The notes beneath the pieces were generated by a model. That model saw nothing but the letters and a program-made list of their open reading frames with translations. It was not told the DNA's origin and did no database searches. Source: Pedobacter sp. R20-19 (GTDB taxonomy: Bacteria > Bacteroidota > Bacteroidia > Sphingobacteriales > Sphingobacteriaceae). From it: a DNA stretch of 64,000 nt. Below are positions 32,987 to 54,698 of the stretch, in pieces; within the stretch, counting starts at the first letter, position 1, and every line of letters starts with the position of its first letter. The DNA lies in the NCBI RefSeq assembly GCF_000708265.2, contig NZ_JCKI01000003.1, forward strand, positions 1 through 64,000, read 5' to 3'. The position numbers and the translations under genes are program-made.

Positions 32987-33060
32987 TGCACTTGTAGGGA
33001 TTCGAACCCCAAACCTTCTCATCCGTAGTGAGATGCTCTATCCAATTGAGCTACAAATGC
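32987..33060 (-). tRNA. tRNA-Arg (anticodon ACG)
   Basis: A 74-nt cloverleaf: acceptor GCATTTG with CAAGTGC, D-stem GCTC/GAGC, anticodon stem TCTCA/TGAGA around loop CTACGGA (anticodon ACG), T-arm TGGGG TTCGAAT CCCTA, discriminator A. CCA is not encoded. ACG reads CGN arginine codons after adenosine deamination to inosine. Confidence 0.95.
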
Positions 33061-36748: not shown

Positions 36749-37102
36749 GTTAATCAAACAATTATGAAATAAAGTTTAAGAAAACATATAAATTAGATAA
36801 TAGTATTTATTCCCTAATTAGAATTAATACAGCTGTAAATTTTCAATTTTATACAACAAATGTCCATTTTCACGAAGAAAATCATATTATTTATAATGCT
36901 AGCATAACAAACATACTATATACCGTTTTGATATTCAGTCTACCATCACCCATATTAAATCAGTGTCTTCACCAATAAATGGAATTATATTCTGAAATTA
37001 AATAACAAAGAAGAATTATATTCTGATTTTATTTTTTTTCGATTTCTCTTGTTTATTAGTAGACCAAAAACTAAATTGGTATTTATAAAGAATCAGAAAC
37101 CA
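36749..37102 (+). other. Upstream region of the ilv-leu cluster
   Basis: About 350 bp of AT-rich DNA without a gene. It must hold the cluster promoter and contains two tandem dyads at 36982-36995 and 37013-37026. I cannot place a promoter box with confidence. Confidence 0.5.
36982..37026 (+). promoter_or_regulatory. Two tandem 14-bp dyads, candidate operator
   Basis: GAATTATATTCTGA occurs at 36982-36995 and again at 37013-37026, 31 bp apart (three helical turns), with AGAAT-TAT-ATTCT dyad symmetry perfect in the second copy. It lies 77-121 bp upstream of the leader peptide. A dimeric repressor or activator bound on one face of the helix would fit; the protein is unknown. Confidence 0.5.
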
Positions 37103-37237
37103 ATGGCAATTCAAATCAATACTTTTTTAAATAACACTGCTGCAAATTTTGCAGTAAATGTAGTATTGTTACCTGTCATTATTCTAAACCTGCTACTTCT
37201 AAATATTTTACTTACGAAGAAAACGGACAGCTTTTAA
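37103..37237 (+). CDS. ilvL: Leader peptide of the branched-chain amino acid cluster, 44 aa
   Basis: The ORF starts MAIQINTFLNN and has 19 Leu, Val or Ile among its 44 residues; 16 of the 20 residues at positions 18-37 are Leu, Val or Ile. It stops 26 bp before a strong terminator that precedes ilvE. Its last codons (GGACAGCTTT, 37225-37234) can pair with the terminator's first arm AAAGCGTCC (37264-37272) with one bulged base. This is the architecture of ribosome-mediated attenuation: scarce charged Leu/Val/Ile tRNA stalls the ribosome in the run, freeing the antiterminator; plentiful tRNA lets it reach the stop and cover the antiterminator, so the terminator forms. ATG at 37103 is preferred over an upstream in-frame codon at 37049. 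Confidence 0.85.
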   Translation: MAIQINTFLNNTAANFAVNVVLLPVIILNLLLLNILLTKKTDSF

Positions 37238-37272
37238 TTAGATTAAAAAAACTAAATATACTTAAAGCGTCC
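37225..37272 (+). promoter_or_regulatory. Antiterminator pairing of the ilv attenuator
   Basis: GGAC-A-GCTTT (37225-37234) pairs with AAAGC/GTCC (37264-37272) and excludes the terminator, because they share the first terminator arm. The 5' segment covers the last four codons of the leader ORF, where a terminating ribosome would mask it. Confidence 0.7.
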
Positions 37273-37297
37273 TGATACAAACAGGACGCTTTTTTTA
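37264..37297 (+). terminator. Attenuator terminator
   Basis: AAAGCGTCCTG and CAGGACGCTTT form a perfect 11-bp stem with a 7-base loop, followed by TTTTT. It sits 20 bp before the ilvE ATG, so premature termination would silence the whole cluster. Confidence 0.88.
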
Positions 37298-37316: not shown

Positions 37317-38207
37317 ATGAAATACTACAATTCTAATACAATTATTTACCTTGATGGGCGGTTTGAGAAAGCTGTAGATAGCAGTACTGATTTATATGGA
37401 CAGTCGCTACATTATGGCTATGCTGCTTTTGAAGGTATAAGAGCCTATAAAACCCACAATGGAAACCGTATTTTTAAAGCCGCCGCTCACTTTGATCGTT
37501 TAGAGCGCTCTTGTCAGCTGGCCAATATTCCATTTCCATGGGATAAACATGATTTGATCAAAGAAACTTATAAGCTACTTACACTAAATAAACTTAAAGA
37601 TGCTTATATCCGTCCATTAGTTTTTTGTCACCCTAATATGAAGCTGAATGAACCAAGCGGAGTATCAATTTTGATTTGTGCCTGGGATTGGGATGCTTAT
37701 TCAGGTAATAAGTTATTAAAACTAACCATTTCTGATTACGAAAGACCAAACCCAAAATCGACTCCAATGGAAGCTAAATTGAGCGGCAATTATGTAAATT
37801 CCATTTTAGCCACCACTGCTGCTAACATTAAAGGCTATGATGAAGCCCTACTTTTAGATATGCATGGCTTTATCGCCGAAGCTTCAGGTGCTAATATTTT
37901 CATCGAAAAAGATGGTAAACTTTACACGCCATCTCCAGGAAACATTTTACCAGGAATAACAAGGGCAACAGTTAAAGAATTATGTACGGTGCTTGATATT
38001 GAATGCATAGAAAAAAAATTGACTATCGAAGATTTAAGGCAAGCAGATAGTGCGTTCTTGTGTGGAACAGCTACTGAAGTTGCAGGTATCGCCTCTGTAG
38101 ATGATATTGTATTCCGTAGTTTATGGAGAGAATCTATCGGGTATACCATACAACGTGCATACAAGAACCTTGTGCTTGAAAAAGTAAATTATGAAGTTAT
38201 TATATAG
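37317..38207 (+). CDS. ilvE: Branched-chain amino acid aminotransferase, 296 aa
   Basis: A fold-type IV PLP aminotransferase converting the 2-oxo acids of Val, Ile and Leu to amino acids with glutamate. Signatures: HYGYAAFEGIRAYKTHNG, PLVFCHPNM, SGNYVNSILATTAANIKGYDEALLLDMHGFIAEASGANIF (PLP lysine region), LPGITRATVKELC, SAFLCGTATEVAGIASVD. It is the first biosynthetic gene after the attenuator. Confidence 0.95.
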   Translation: MKYYNSNTIIYLDGRFEKAVDSSTDLYGQSLHYGYAAFEGIRAYKTHNGNRIFKAAAHFDRLERSCQLANIPFPWDKHDLIKETYKLLTLNKLKDAYIRPLVFCHPNMKLNEPSGVSILICAWDWDAYSGNKLLKLTISDYERPNPKSTPMEAKLSGNYVNSILATTAANIKGYDEALLLDMHGFIAEASGANIFIEKDGKLYTPSPGNILPGITRATVKELCTVLDIECIEKKLTIEDLRQADSAFLCGTATEVAGIASVDDIVFRSLWRESIGYTIQRAYKNLVLEKVNYEVII

Positions 38208-51911: not shown

Positions 51912-53072
51912 ATGATTCACGACCCAAACAAAGTTTATATTTTCGACACCACCTTACGTGATGGTGAGCAGGTACCAGGCTGTCAATTAGATACAAACCA
52001 AAAAGTAGAAATCGCAAAATCTCTTGAGCTATTAGGCGTAGATGTAATTGAAGCAGGATTCCCCGTATCTAGTCCAGGAGATTTTAATAGCGTAATCGAA
52101 TTATCAAAAGCAGTAACCAACCCTATAATTTGTGCGTTAACCCGTGCAAACAAAAACGATATCGATGTAGCTGCTGATGCTTTGCGTTATGCCAAAAGAC
52201 CTCGTATCCATACCGGAATTGGTTCATCTGATTTCCACATTAAACATAAATTTAACAGTACCCGCGATGAGATTTTAGAACGTGCTGTAGAAGCCGTAAA
52301 ATATTCAAAAAAATTCGTAGAAGATGTAGAATTTTACGCGGAAGATGCTGGCCGTGCTGATATAGAATTTTTAGCTAAAATGGTTGAGGCTGTTATTGCA
52401 GCTGGAGCAACCGTAGTTAATATTCCAGATACCAATGGTTATTGCTTGCCAGACCAATATGGTTCGAAAATTCTTTATTTAAAAGAAAATGTAAAGAATA
52501 TTGATCAGGCCATTATCTCTGTTCACTGCCATAATGACTTAGGCTTGGCTACTGCAAATTCAATAGCAGGTTTGCAAAATGGTGCCCGCCAGGTAGAATG
52601 TACCATTAACGGAATAGGTGAGCGTGCTGGGAATACTTCGATGGAAGAAGTGGTAATGATTCTAAAAACGCATAAAGTTTTGGGATTAAACACGCAAATT
52701 GATGCCACTCGTTTTTATGAAATGAGCCACATGATTAGAAACCAAATGAATATGCCAGTGCAACCAAACAAGGCAATTGTTGGCGGAAATGCATTTTCAC
52801 ACAGTTCTGGAATTCATCAGGATGGCTTCTTAAAAAACCGTGAAAACTACGAAATCATTAAACCTGAAGATGTAGGTTTCCCTGATGCGACAATTGTATT
52901 AACTGCCAGAAGCGGTCGCCATGCATTAAAACACCATTTGGATCGTTTAGGCCATAGATTAGAAAAAGACAATTTGGATATTGTTTACAAACAGTTTTTA
53001 GTTTTAGCAGATGGCAAACAAGGCATTAATGACCACGATTTAAACCAATTGGTTGCTTTGCATTTGGCTTAG
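51912..53072 (+). CDS. leuA: 2-isopropylmalate synthase, short form, 386 aa
   Basis: The first committed step of leucine synthesis, condensing acetyl-CoA and 2-oxoisovalerate. Catalytic motifs [29 protein letters not shown] (metal-binding His pair) and [14 protein letters not shown] are intact. It ends at residue 386, right after the catalytic and subdomain region: the C-terminal allosteric leucine-binding domain (about 130 residues in standard 510-520 residue enzymes) is missing. Feedback inhibition by leucine is thus not expected, which leaves attenuation as an important control. Short LeuA enzymes are common in Bacteroidota. It starts 10 bp after leuB. Confidence 0.92.
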
Positions 53073-53447: not shown

Positions 53448-54698
53448 ATGAACATAACAACGCCAAATACTTTAGATTTCAATTCTGCCACACAGCGACT
53501 TAAAGGTGTGGTAAAGCGTACACCTTTGGAATTTAACGCCGGACTTTCTGCTCATTACAATGCAAATATTTATTTGAAAAGAGAAGATTTGCAAATTGTG
53601 CGTTCTTACAAGTTACGTGGTGCGTATAACAAAATTAGTTCTTTGCCACAGGAGGCCTTAACAAATGGCGTGGTTTGTGCCAGTGCTGGTAATCATGCGC
53701 AGGGCGTAGCCTATTCATGTAAGAAGTTAGGGATTAAAGGCGTCATATTTATGCCGGAGATTACACCAAAACAGAAGATCAAACAGGTTAATATGTTTGG
53801 CGGCGATAATATTGAAATTATTTTGGTTGGTGATACCTTTGATGATTGTTTAAAAGAAGCCCTGGTTTATGCTGAAGAAAAAGCCTCAACATTTATCCCT
53901 CCGTTTGATGATGATAAAGTAATCGAAGGACAGGCTACGGTTGCGATGGAAATTTTTGAGGATTTACCAGAATTAGATGCCATAATTGTTCCTGTTGGAG
54001 GTGGTGGTTTAGCTTCCGGAGTGATTGCTTATCTGCAAACGGTAAAGCCCGCTGTAAAAATTTTTGGTGTTGAACCAATGGGCGCACCATCATTAAGCGA
54101 AGCCCTAAAAAATGGTGGACCAATAACCGTTGAAAACATCGAACGTTTTGTTGATGGTGCAGCAGTAAAGAGAATGGGTTGGATCACTTATCAATACTGT
54201 AAGGAACTGCTTAGCTCTACTTATTTAATTCCTGAAGGACAAATTTGTACCACCATTTTAAAGCTTTATAATGAGGATGCTATTGTTGTAGAACCTGCTG
54301 GTGCATTGTCTGTTGCGGCATTAGAGCAAGTAAAAGATCAAATTGTAGGGAAAAATGTGGTATGTGTGATTAGCGGCGGCAATAACGACATTGAGCGGAT
54401 GCAGGAAATTAAAGAGAAATCTTTGCTTTTTGAAGGCTTAAAACATTACTTCATTGTACGTTTTCCGCAAAGACCAGGTGCGTTAAAGTTATTTGTGAAT
54501 GAAGTTTTAGGTCCGCAGGATGATATTACGCGTTTTGAATTCATTAAAAAAACCAATAAAGAGAATGGGCCTGCCCTGGTTGGAATTGAGCTTACCAATA
54601 AAGATGATTATGCCAGTTTAGTACAGCGCATGAAGGATTTTAAATTCGAGATTATTGAGTTGAACCAAGACCAGACATTGTTTGAGTATCTGGTTTAA
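53448..54698 (+). CDS. ilvA: Threonine ammonia-lyase (deaminase), 416 aa
   Basis: PLP-dependent conversion of threonine to 2-oxobutyrate, the entry to isoleucine. PLP lysine in VRSYKLRGAYNK, CASAGNHAQGVA, glycine-rich VPVGGGGLASGV. The C-terminal ACT-like regulatory domain (about 330-416, HYFIVRFPQRPGALKLFVNEVLG) is present once, as in the shorter IlvA type. Isoleucine feedback is expected. Confidence 0.95.
   Translation: MNITTPNTLDFNSATQRLKGVVKRTPLEFNAGLSAHYNANIYLKREDLQIVRSYKLRGAYNKISSLPQEALTNGVVCASAGNHAQGVAYSCKKLGIKGVIFMPEITPKQKIKQVNMFGGDNIEIILVGDTFDDCLKEALVYAEEKASTFIPPFDDDKVIEGQATVAMEIFEDLPELDAIIVPVGGGGLASGVIAYLQTVKPAVKIFGVEPMGAPSLSEALKNGGPITVENIERFVDGAAVKRMGWITYQYCKELLSSTYLIPEGQICTTILKLYNEDAIVVEPAGALSVAALEQVKDQIVGKNVVCVISGGNNDIERMQEIKEKSLLFEGLKHYFIVRFPQRPGALKLFVNEVLGPQDDITRFEFIKKTNKENGPALVGIELTNKDDYASLVQRMKDFKFEIIELNQDQTLFEYLV

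Follow-up and report, generated by a model that had tools for sequence, protein, structure and literature searches.

The ilv-leu cluster of Pedobacter sp. R20-19 is preceded by a short ORF that is crowded with codons for leucine, isoleucine and valine, followed by a terminator-like hairpin. This raises the question of whether these elements form a switch that adjusts the expression of the branched-chain amino acid (BCAA) genes to the supply of their products. An earlier note, made from the letters of the window (the whole stretch of 64,000 nt analysed here), had read them as a ribosome-mediated attenuator. Our results support that reading by conservation of the element, covariation of its helices, the codon pattern of the regulatory block and, in most loci, its geometry. 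We put the probability of classical ribosome-mediated attenuation of the ilv-leu operon at roughly nine in ten. Judged from sequence, leader and terminator very probably let the bacterium express its BCAA genes only when those amino acids are scarce. The features are listed in Table 1.

Table 1. Positions of the ilv-leu leader elements in the window, and of related leaders elsewhere in the same genome.
Feature	Position	Strand	Details
Likely Bacteroidota-type promoter	37049..37079	+	TTG 37049-37051, 20 nt, TAAATTGG 37072-37079
Inverted repeat, possible operator or extended promoter element	37063..37080	.	ACCAAAAACTAAATTGGT, ACCAA-N8-TTGGT over the -7 box
Leader peptide ORF	37103..37237	+	44 codons, MAIQINTFLNNTAANFAVNVVLLPVIILNLLLLNILLTKKTDSF; such an ORF in 73/74 loci
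Candidate pause hairpin within the leader, reaching from just upstream into the regulatory codons	37134..37161	+	codons 11-20
Regulatory codon block, residues 18-37	37154..37213	+	16/20 Leu/Ile/Val
Antiterminator strand (segment 2), last leader codons	37225..37234	+	GGACAGCTTT; pairs with 37264-37272; partner-swap test
Shared strand (segment 3), terminator 5' arm and antiterminator partner	37264..37274	+	
Intrinsic terminator (predicted)	37264..37296	+	11-bp stem, 7-nt loop, T-run; -16.9 kcal/mol, z -7.98
ilvE, class IV aminotransferase, first cluster gene	37317..38207	+	Pfam PF01063
Thr/Ile leader before thrA (1507)	L191:1295-1430, contig C8		MNFTSSIITTIIITTGINQRG (…NFTSSIITTIIITTGINQRG); terminator AAAGCGTCCCGA...TCGGGACGCTTTTT
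His leader before hisG	L189, ~126 to 45 nt before hisG	minus	MELTLNHHLHLHHRR; then an AT-rich hairpin
Trp leader before trpE	L190, ~207 to 68 nt before trpE	minus	…NIHTWLWQSNSKTDCAGCV; GC-rich terminator

Anatomy of the ilv-leu leader

Ribosome-mediated attenuators are recognised by a short ORF rich in codons for the amino acids that the operon makes, a terminator between this ORF and the first structural gene, and an antiterminator that overlaps the end of the ORF and excludes the terminator. The region ahead of ilvE has all of these. Read on the sequence, the leader ORF starts with ATG at 37103 and stops with TAA at 37237, and the whole peptide contains 10 Leu, 5 Ile and 4 Val. Within it, the block VNVVLLPVIILNLLLLNILL (residues 18-37) consists of Leu, Ile or Val at 16 of its 20 positions. 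The figures given for this ORF and its block in the earlier note all match the sequence.

The terminator stem pairs 37264-37274 with 37282-37292, and its T-run spans 37290-37296. The stem ends (37292) 24 nt and the T-run 20 nt upstream of the ATG of ilvE at 37317, which confirms the 11-bp stem and the T-run 20 bp ahead of ilvE described before. The description of the stem as following 'directly' on the ORF did not hold, because the stem begins 26 nt past the stop codon and is thus close only. Might the terminator belong to the gene upstream of the leader, which we take to be atp-like? We rejected this possibility, as a different terminator-like hairpin lies behind that gene, with its end 575 nt upstream of ilvE. 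Dinucleotide shuffles of the 350 nt upstream of ilvE in the window yielded the combination of ORF and terminator in 0 of 2000 cases. The rule applied called for 8 or more Leu/Ile/Val among 12 residues of an ORF plus a terminator in range, and was satisfied by 68 of 73 real loci (five loci fell below this strict rule) vs 0 of 1460 shuffles.

The last codons of the leader can pair with the first arm of the terminator, as had been proposed: GGACAGCTTT (37225-37234) and AAAGCGTCC (37264-37272) form 9 bp with one bulged A. The duplex of segments 2 and 3 has a predicted energy of -11.1 kcal/mol. This antiterminator is the minimum-energy local fold (-8.5 kcal/mol) until the 3' arm of the terminator is present. 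Once that arm is present, the terminator is the stabler fold at equilibrium, even with segment 2 free. Hence, the decision must fall during transcription, by co-transcriptional folding, as in the classical model.

Alternatively, another RNA sensor (a T-box, a riboswitch or an RNA-binding protein) might work the terminator, with the ORF being incidental. Such an arrangement has a precedent in the ilv-leu operon of B. subtilis, which is under control of a T-box (excerpt of PMC5794164). Yet, no Rfam family matched the leader at threshold, the only threshold match in the window being a tRNA (32987-33060), and the Leu/Ile/Val codons of the leader stay in frame. We rejected a T-box or riboswitch on these grounds, and consider another sensor of any of these kinds very unlikely. 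A permissive Rfam search of the leader returned seven sub-threshold matches, including RF01859 Phe_leader (23.2 bits vs a cut-off of 55) and RF00512 Leu_leader (17.5 bits vs a cut-off of 50). Both are leader-peptide families.

Conservation and covariation among relatives

For comparison, we used 73 loci encoding an IlvE relative, plus the window. These loci are mostly from Pedobacter, and include one Nubsella, two Sphingobacteriaceae MAGs, one contig labelled Flavobacteriaceae and three Chitinophagaceae MAGs. The IlvE of the window is at most 98% identical to that of named Pedobacter genomes. The element of leader and terminator is present in 73 of the 74 loci (the window plus 72 of the 73 relatives), so that the ORF is conserved in relatives, as the earlier note had proposed to check. 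The script found 70 of the 74; L055, L059 and L070 were added by means of a hand-written terminator pattern, having been missed by the script's tail rule because the stem of their terminator continues into the T-run. In P. montanisoli (L054), the leader ORF is gone, and the promoter and a terminator-like hairpin (L054:2690-2790) are kept. It offers a natural knock-out for comparison. In L007, L020, L022, L024, L027, L030 and others, there are ~98 nt extra between the terminator and ilvE, which contain an imperfect hairpin (in L007, CATGATTAAA...TTTAATCATG) and resemble a small inserted element.

The compensatory changes that had been suggested as a check were found in both competing helices, as terminator and antiterminator co-vary. 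Among the 46 close loci, 98% of the cells of the terminator are paired, with one position of the stem being C-G in 26 of these loci and U-A in 18. In more distant loci, the terminator arm reads GCGTCTCC, GCGCCTTT, GCGCCTC, GCGCCCC or GCCCCGC, and the last leader codons change too. When antiterminator partners were permuted among species, own partners paired better (-12.15 kcal/mol) than permuted ones (-11.04 kcal/mol, sd 0.24), and 0 of 20000 permutations of the 53 unique pairs were as good. For the 16 distinct terminator arms, the corresponding values are -13.33 vs -10.89 kcal/mol (sd 0.56), again with 0 of 20000 as good; both permutations ignore the relatedness of the species. The matrix of swaps between classes is mixed, with the own class as best partner in 4 of 10 rows and one tie, and for CCTG-class leaders the mean pairing energy is better with CCC-class arms (-12.7) than with arms of the CCTG class itself (-11.4). 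Compared with shuffled versions, the own segment 2 has a mean z of -1.67, with values below -1 in 60 of 73 loci and below -2 in 18 of 73.

In the codon block, across 14 codons and 42 unique rows, we counted 19, 8 and 26 extra nucleotide states at the first, second and third codon position. The second position thus varies least, as expected if the amino-acid class is what counts, and this bears out the expectation that the Leu/Val/Ile codons are conserved. The Leu codons CTA and CTC and the Val codon GTC are over-used in the leaders, at 0.25, 0.12 and 0.30. The corresponding values for twelve genes of the window, where these codons are rare, are 0.06, 0.02 and 0.02. Since the species share ancestry, the leader counts are not independent of one another.

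The stretch of ~20 residues rich in Leu, Ile and Val is also hydrophobic, like a transmembrane helix. Hence, the ORF might instead encode a functional small membrane protein with a terminator of its own and partial read-through into ilvE. However, the peptide is poorly conserved. The 73 related leader peptides are 28-52 aa long and consist of 26-54% Leu, Ile or Val, and their N-termini differ between clades. In the 46-member clade, the leader ends as a ...KTDSF-type in 22 and as a ...RTQxK-type in 24 members, while the nucleotides are alike. The leader end is thus read in two frames among close relatives, which implies that it is the RNA rather than the peptide that is conserved there. Furthermore, the last part of the ORF can pair with the terminator arm, and the two co-vary. 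In the leaders of thrA, hisG and trpE, the place of the BCAA codons is taken by those for Thr/Ile, His and Trp. We therefore rejected the small membrane protein, which we regard as highly improbable, and retain the attenuator.

The element is not present throughout the family. A family sample of 30 loci, taken from 51 genomes with a match among 101 genomes searched, has the ilv leader in 13 loci, and none was found in 17, including all 15 (L169-L183) of genera g2, g67 and g69; these counts are not phylum frequencies. The absence from 17 of the 30 family loci implies that the leader is dispensable. Script matches in L169-L183 were traced by eye to the last part of the gene upstream and to the terminator of that gene, and were discarded. 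The last 60 nt before ilvE in L174 (genus g67) hold a degenerate terminator-like hairpin, with no leader, which is possibly a relic of an attenuator.

Ribosome position and proposed mechanism

Counted from the first base of the codon in the P site, the front edge of a ribosome is 15 nt away. Segment 2 starts at a median of 13 nt upstream of the stop codon, and a ribosome at the leader stop codon would cover it. With a stall at the last codon of the block, the median gap to segment 2 would be 2 nt. The gap is negative in 16 of 73 loci, where such a stall would overlap segment 2; this counts against the model. Nonetheless, at least four block codons at which a stall would free segment 2 are present in 70 of 73 loci, and in the window this holds for 14 of 14.

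Bacteroidota mRNAs mostly lack Shine-Dalgarno sequences, and among our 73 loci a Shine-Dalgarno-like tetramer occurs ahead of the leader in 7 and ahead of ilvE in 1.

Our reading of the element is as follows. A ribosome would translate the 44-codon ORF behind the RNA polymerase that makes the leader, and the polymerase may be held up at the hairpin of codons 11-20 until this ribosome catches up. If leucyl-, isoleucyl- or valyl-tRNA is scarce, the ribosome would stall in the Leu/Ile/Val block and leave segment 2 free. Free segment 2 would then capture segment 3 before the partner of the terminator is made, such that no terminator forms and the operon is read. If the amino acids are ample, the ribosome would reach the stop codon and cover segment 2, and the terminator would form before ilvE. 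Translation of the leader, stalling, termination and the response to leucine, including its direction, are what we infer from the anatomy of the element.

The hairpin within the leader is possibly to probably a conserved element. In the window, it has a predicted energy of -9.3 kcal/mol (z -1.48), with 12 of 200 shuffles as good. Across loci, it is weak by energy, with a mean z of -1.33 (47 of 73 below -1). Two stretches of ilvE that served as controls in 36 loci gave -0.93 and -0.13, so that the excess over one of them is small. The hairpin has counterparts in other clades. Changes on both sides were seen for 8 of 12 pairs in nine loci of one clade, where 0 of 500 shuffles scored as high on four measures and 1 of 500 on a fifth, and slid versions are 27-45% paired; since the alignment tested had also served to derive this structure, the test is biased in its favour. 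In the clade of the window (46 loci), a 4-bp hairpin is 84% paired, and a slide of +3 gives 78%. The consensus fold predicted for 11 other loci (alignment A4) lacks the hairpin. We therefore treat it as a candidate that may pause the polymerase.

The predicted promoter and its inverted repeat

The Bacteroidota -7 consensus is TAnnTTTG. The predicted -7 box of the leader, TAAATTGG, is close to this consensus. A TAnnTT[T/G]G motif is found at most 100 nt upstream of the leader in 69 of 73 loci.

The -7 box is overlapped by an inverted repeat, ACCAA-N8-TTGG[A/T], in 60 of 73 loci, and the repeat is retained in L054, which lacks the leader. This could mean that the promoter is the main site of control, with a regulator binding ACCAA-N8-TTGGT and an attenuator that only fine-tunes. 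A search of the own genome gave no second exact copy of ACCAA-N8-TTGGT, and hence no regulon. Copies with at most two mismatches were no commoner there than those of a control pattern (12 vs 22), and a copy with one mismatch had, by eye, no promoter context. We therefore rejected a regulon for this repeat. Moreover, one half of the repeat is needed by the promoter anyway. Main control at the promoter thus appears unlikely, though clearly less so than the other sensor or the membrane protein, and it would be compatible with attenuation.

Leucine control in the cluster

The cluster runs from ilvE to leuA (ending at 53072) and ilvA (ending at 54698). Its order is ilvE, a methyltransferase gene, ilvD, an ORF6N gene, ilvB, ilvN, a DinB-like gene, ilvC and leuC, followed by a methyltransferase gene, leuD, a gene for an ABC protein, leuB, leuA and ilvA. 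Our Pfam scan covered eight cluster genes and a cupin gene downstream of the cluster. The identities of ilvD, ilvB, ilvC, leuC, leuD and leuB are presumed from similarity, as are those of the other genes outside the scan. The cluster from ilvE to ilvA is presumably transcribed as a single unit.

LeuA (51912-53072, 386 aa) has the HMGL-like and HCS_D2 domains of Pfam and no LeuA_dimer domain. This domain (PF08502) was not found in the 99.95%-complete genome, and the same search was positive in 14 of 14 control genomes. The earlier note had suggested that attenuation may be the chief leucine control here. The LeuA without its feedback domain speaks for this suggestion. However, IlvN retains its ACT domain and IlvA its regulatory domain (Pfam), which speaks against the word 'chief'. 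It is plausible that attenuation carries leucine control in this cluster.

Leaders before other operons and across the phylum

In the same genome, leaders precede thrA, hisG and trpE as well (Table 1), and each carries the cognate codons, which suggests a general use of attenuators. The hairpin ahead of hisG (L189) is a terminator-like, AT-rich 6-bp structure, GTTTTG-TACTT-CAAAAC-T7, and the trpE leaders have two Trp codons (TWLWQ, TWQWR and similar). By eye, no leader was seen in this genome before the second homoserine dehydrogenase gene or the second chorismate-binding gene.

Thirty sampled Pedobacter genomes, our own included, agree well with this picture. Leader and terminator precede thrA in 30 of 30; for hisG, the leader is present in 30 and the terminator in 28, and for trpE in 29 and 28, respectively. 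These are counts without a shuffle or reverse-strand control, and since the 30 genomes are related they represent conservation rather than independent events.

Beyond Pedobacter, a BCAA leader with terminator was detected upstream of ilvD in 16 of 40 regions on the coding strand vs 0 of 40 on the reverse strand. These regions represent 40 genomes of other genera of the phylum, hand-picked, mostly one or a few per genus, from 87 genomes with an IlvD match. A looser detector gave 24 forward candidates vs 5 on the reverse strand, and the stricter one was adopted. A His leader with terminator was found before hisG in 16 of 30 loci, two of them from Pedobacter, vs 0 of 30 on the reverse strand (best 30 of 62 genomes). 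For thrA, the count was 4 of 30, all from the family of the window, vs 0 of 30 (best 30 of 114 genomes). Like those of the family sample, the counts for ilvD, hisG and thrA are not frequencies in the phylum. Genes of other genomes are named after the query that found them, and thrA, trpE and the ilvE of the tandem regions were named by inference.

Short Thr/Ile-rich ORFs also precede thrA-like genes in L318, L319, L320, L321, L330, L332, L337, L339 and L340, with no terminator by our rule. Several end in TTTTTTP or TTITTP, and one is unconvincing. Perhaps they represent another way to use a leader.

Three of these 16 ilvD regions with a leader, from three genera (L120, L129 and L137), have the series leader, terminator, leader, terminator before an ilvE-like gene that precedes ilvD. 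Both leaders are Ile/Val-rich, and by eye the end of each is complementary to its own terminator arm. We lean towards the view that ribosome-mediated attenuation is general for amino-acid operons in Bacteroidota, and that some genera stack two attenuators with the same sensing in series. If so, serial attenuators before one ilv operon would multiply the range or steepness of the switch, and tandem leaders would be a new circuit layout. In that case, tight coupling of transcription and translation in Bacteroidota would also set in with the first codons. Because attenuation needs a ribosome close behind the polymerase, the conserved attenuators make this coupling testable by a simple reporter. 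Two things make these leaders stand out: their breadth, as they head more than one operon, occur in more than one family of the phylum and may be in tandem, and the coupling that they imply. For annotation, short ORFs rich in Leu/Ile/Val, Thr/Ile, His or Trp before such operons are probably regulators rather than hypothetical proteins.

Comparison with known systems

The type of switch is classical, and is well conserved here in a phylum with hardly any descriptions of it. Vitreschak et al. reportedly named candidate amino-acid attenuators in Bacteroidetes/Chlorobi in 2004, and we therefore do not claim a first description for the phylum. Among the papers listed from the literature that we searched, with most subscription journals outside it, there was no report of a BCAA attenuator in Bacteroidota, nor of leader peptides combined with attenuation in Bacteroidota or Pedobacter. 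Naville and Gautheret (2010) state that they knew leader-peptide systems, ermC aside, only from Proteobacteria and Actinobacteria, and added Firmicutes (PMC2965389). A transcriptome of B. thetaiotaomicron contains sORFs in long 5' UTRs that recall leader peptides (excerpt of PMC7366714).

Close relatives of our element by design are ilvL, ahead of ilvGMEDA, and leuL of E. coli and Salmonella, which have leaders rich in cognate codons and alternative antiterminator and terminator structures, and of which leuL uses rare Leu codons. The Pedobacter leader resembles them in its codon-rich peptide, its competing helices, the nearby first gene and its rare Leu codons. In contrast to both, it heads ilv and leu genes together. 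It also differs in that few of the leaders (7/73, as above) have a Shine-Dalgarno-like tetramer, and in that Leu_leader stays below threshold.

Two leaders of Firmicutes, here compared on excerpts of their descriptions, resemble our element in the genes that they precede. Rli60 of Listeria monocytogenes is a BCAA leader peptide before ilv-leu that was tested by mutation, with alternative structures of -10.3 and -17.1 (PMC5864092). These energies resemble those of the Pedobacter antiterminator (-8.5 to -11) and terminator (-16.9). The leader of S. aureus ilvD is likewise a BCAA leader peptide ahead of an ilv-leu operon (PMC5794164). Both differ from our element in their phylum, in having a ribosome binding site and in having CodY above them (PMC5864092, PMC5794164), and the Rli60 leader is only 13 aa long, vs 44 here (PMC5864092).

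Within Bacteroidetes, the Bacteroid-trp RNA (RF01692) is an element named for trp and not for BCAA (excerpt of PMC2864571). The Pedobacter trpE loci L190, L254, L256 and L270 gave no Rfam match at threshold, whether to RF01692 or to another family.

For the tandem leaders, a comparison can be made with the tandem attenuators of Salmonella mgtCBR, where, in the excerpt consulted, two short ORFs on one transcript sense different signals (PMC3641672). L120, L129 and L137 have two short ORFs too, but both are Ile/Val-rich and each has its own terminator. Tandem ilv attenuators of this kind look like a new arrangement.
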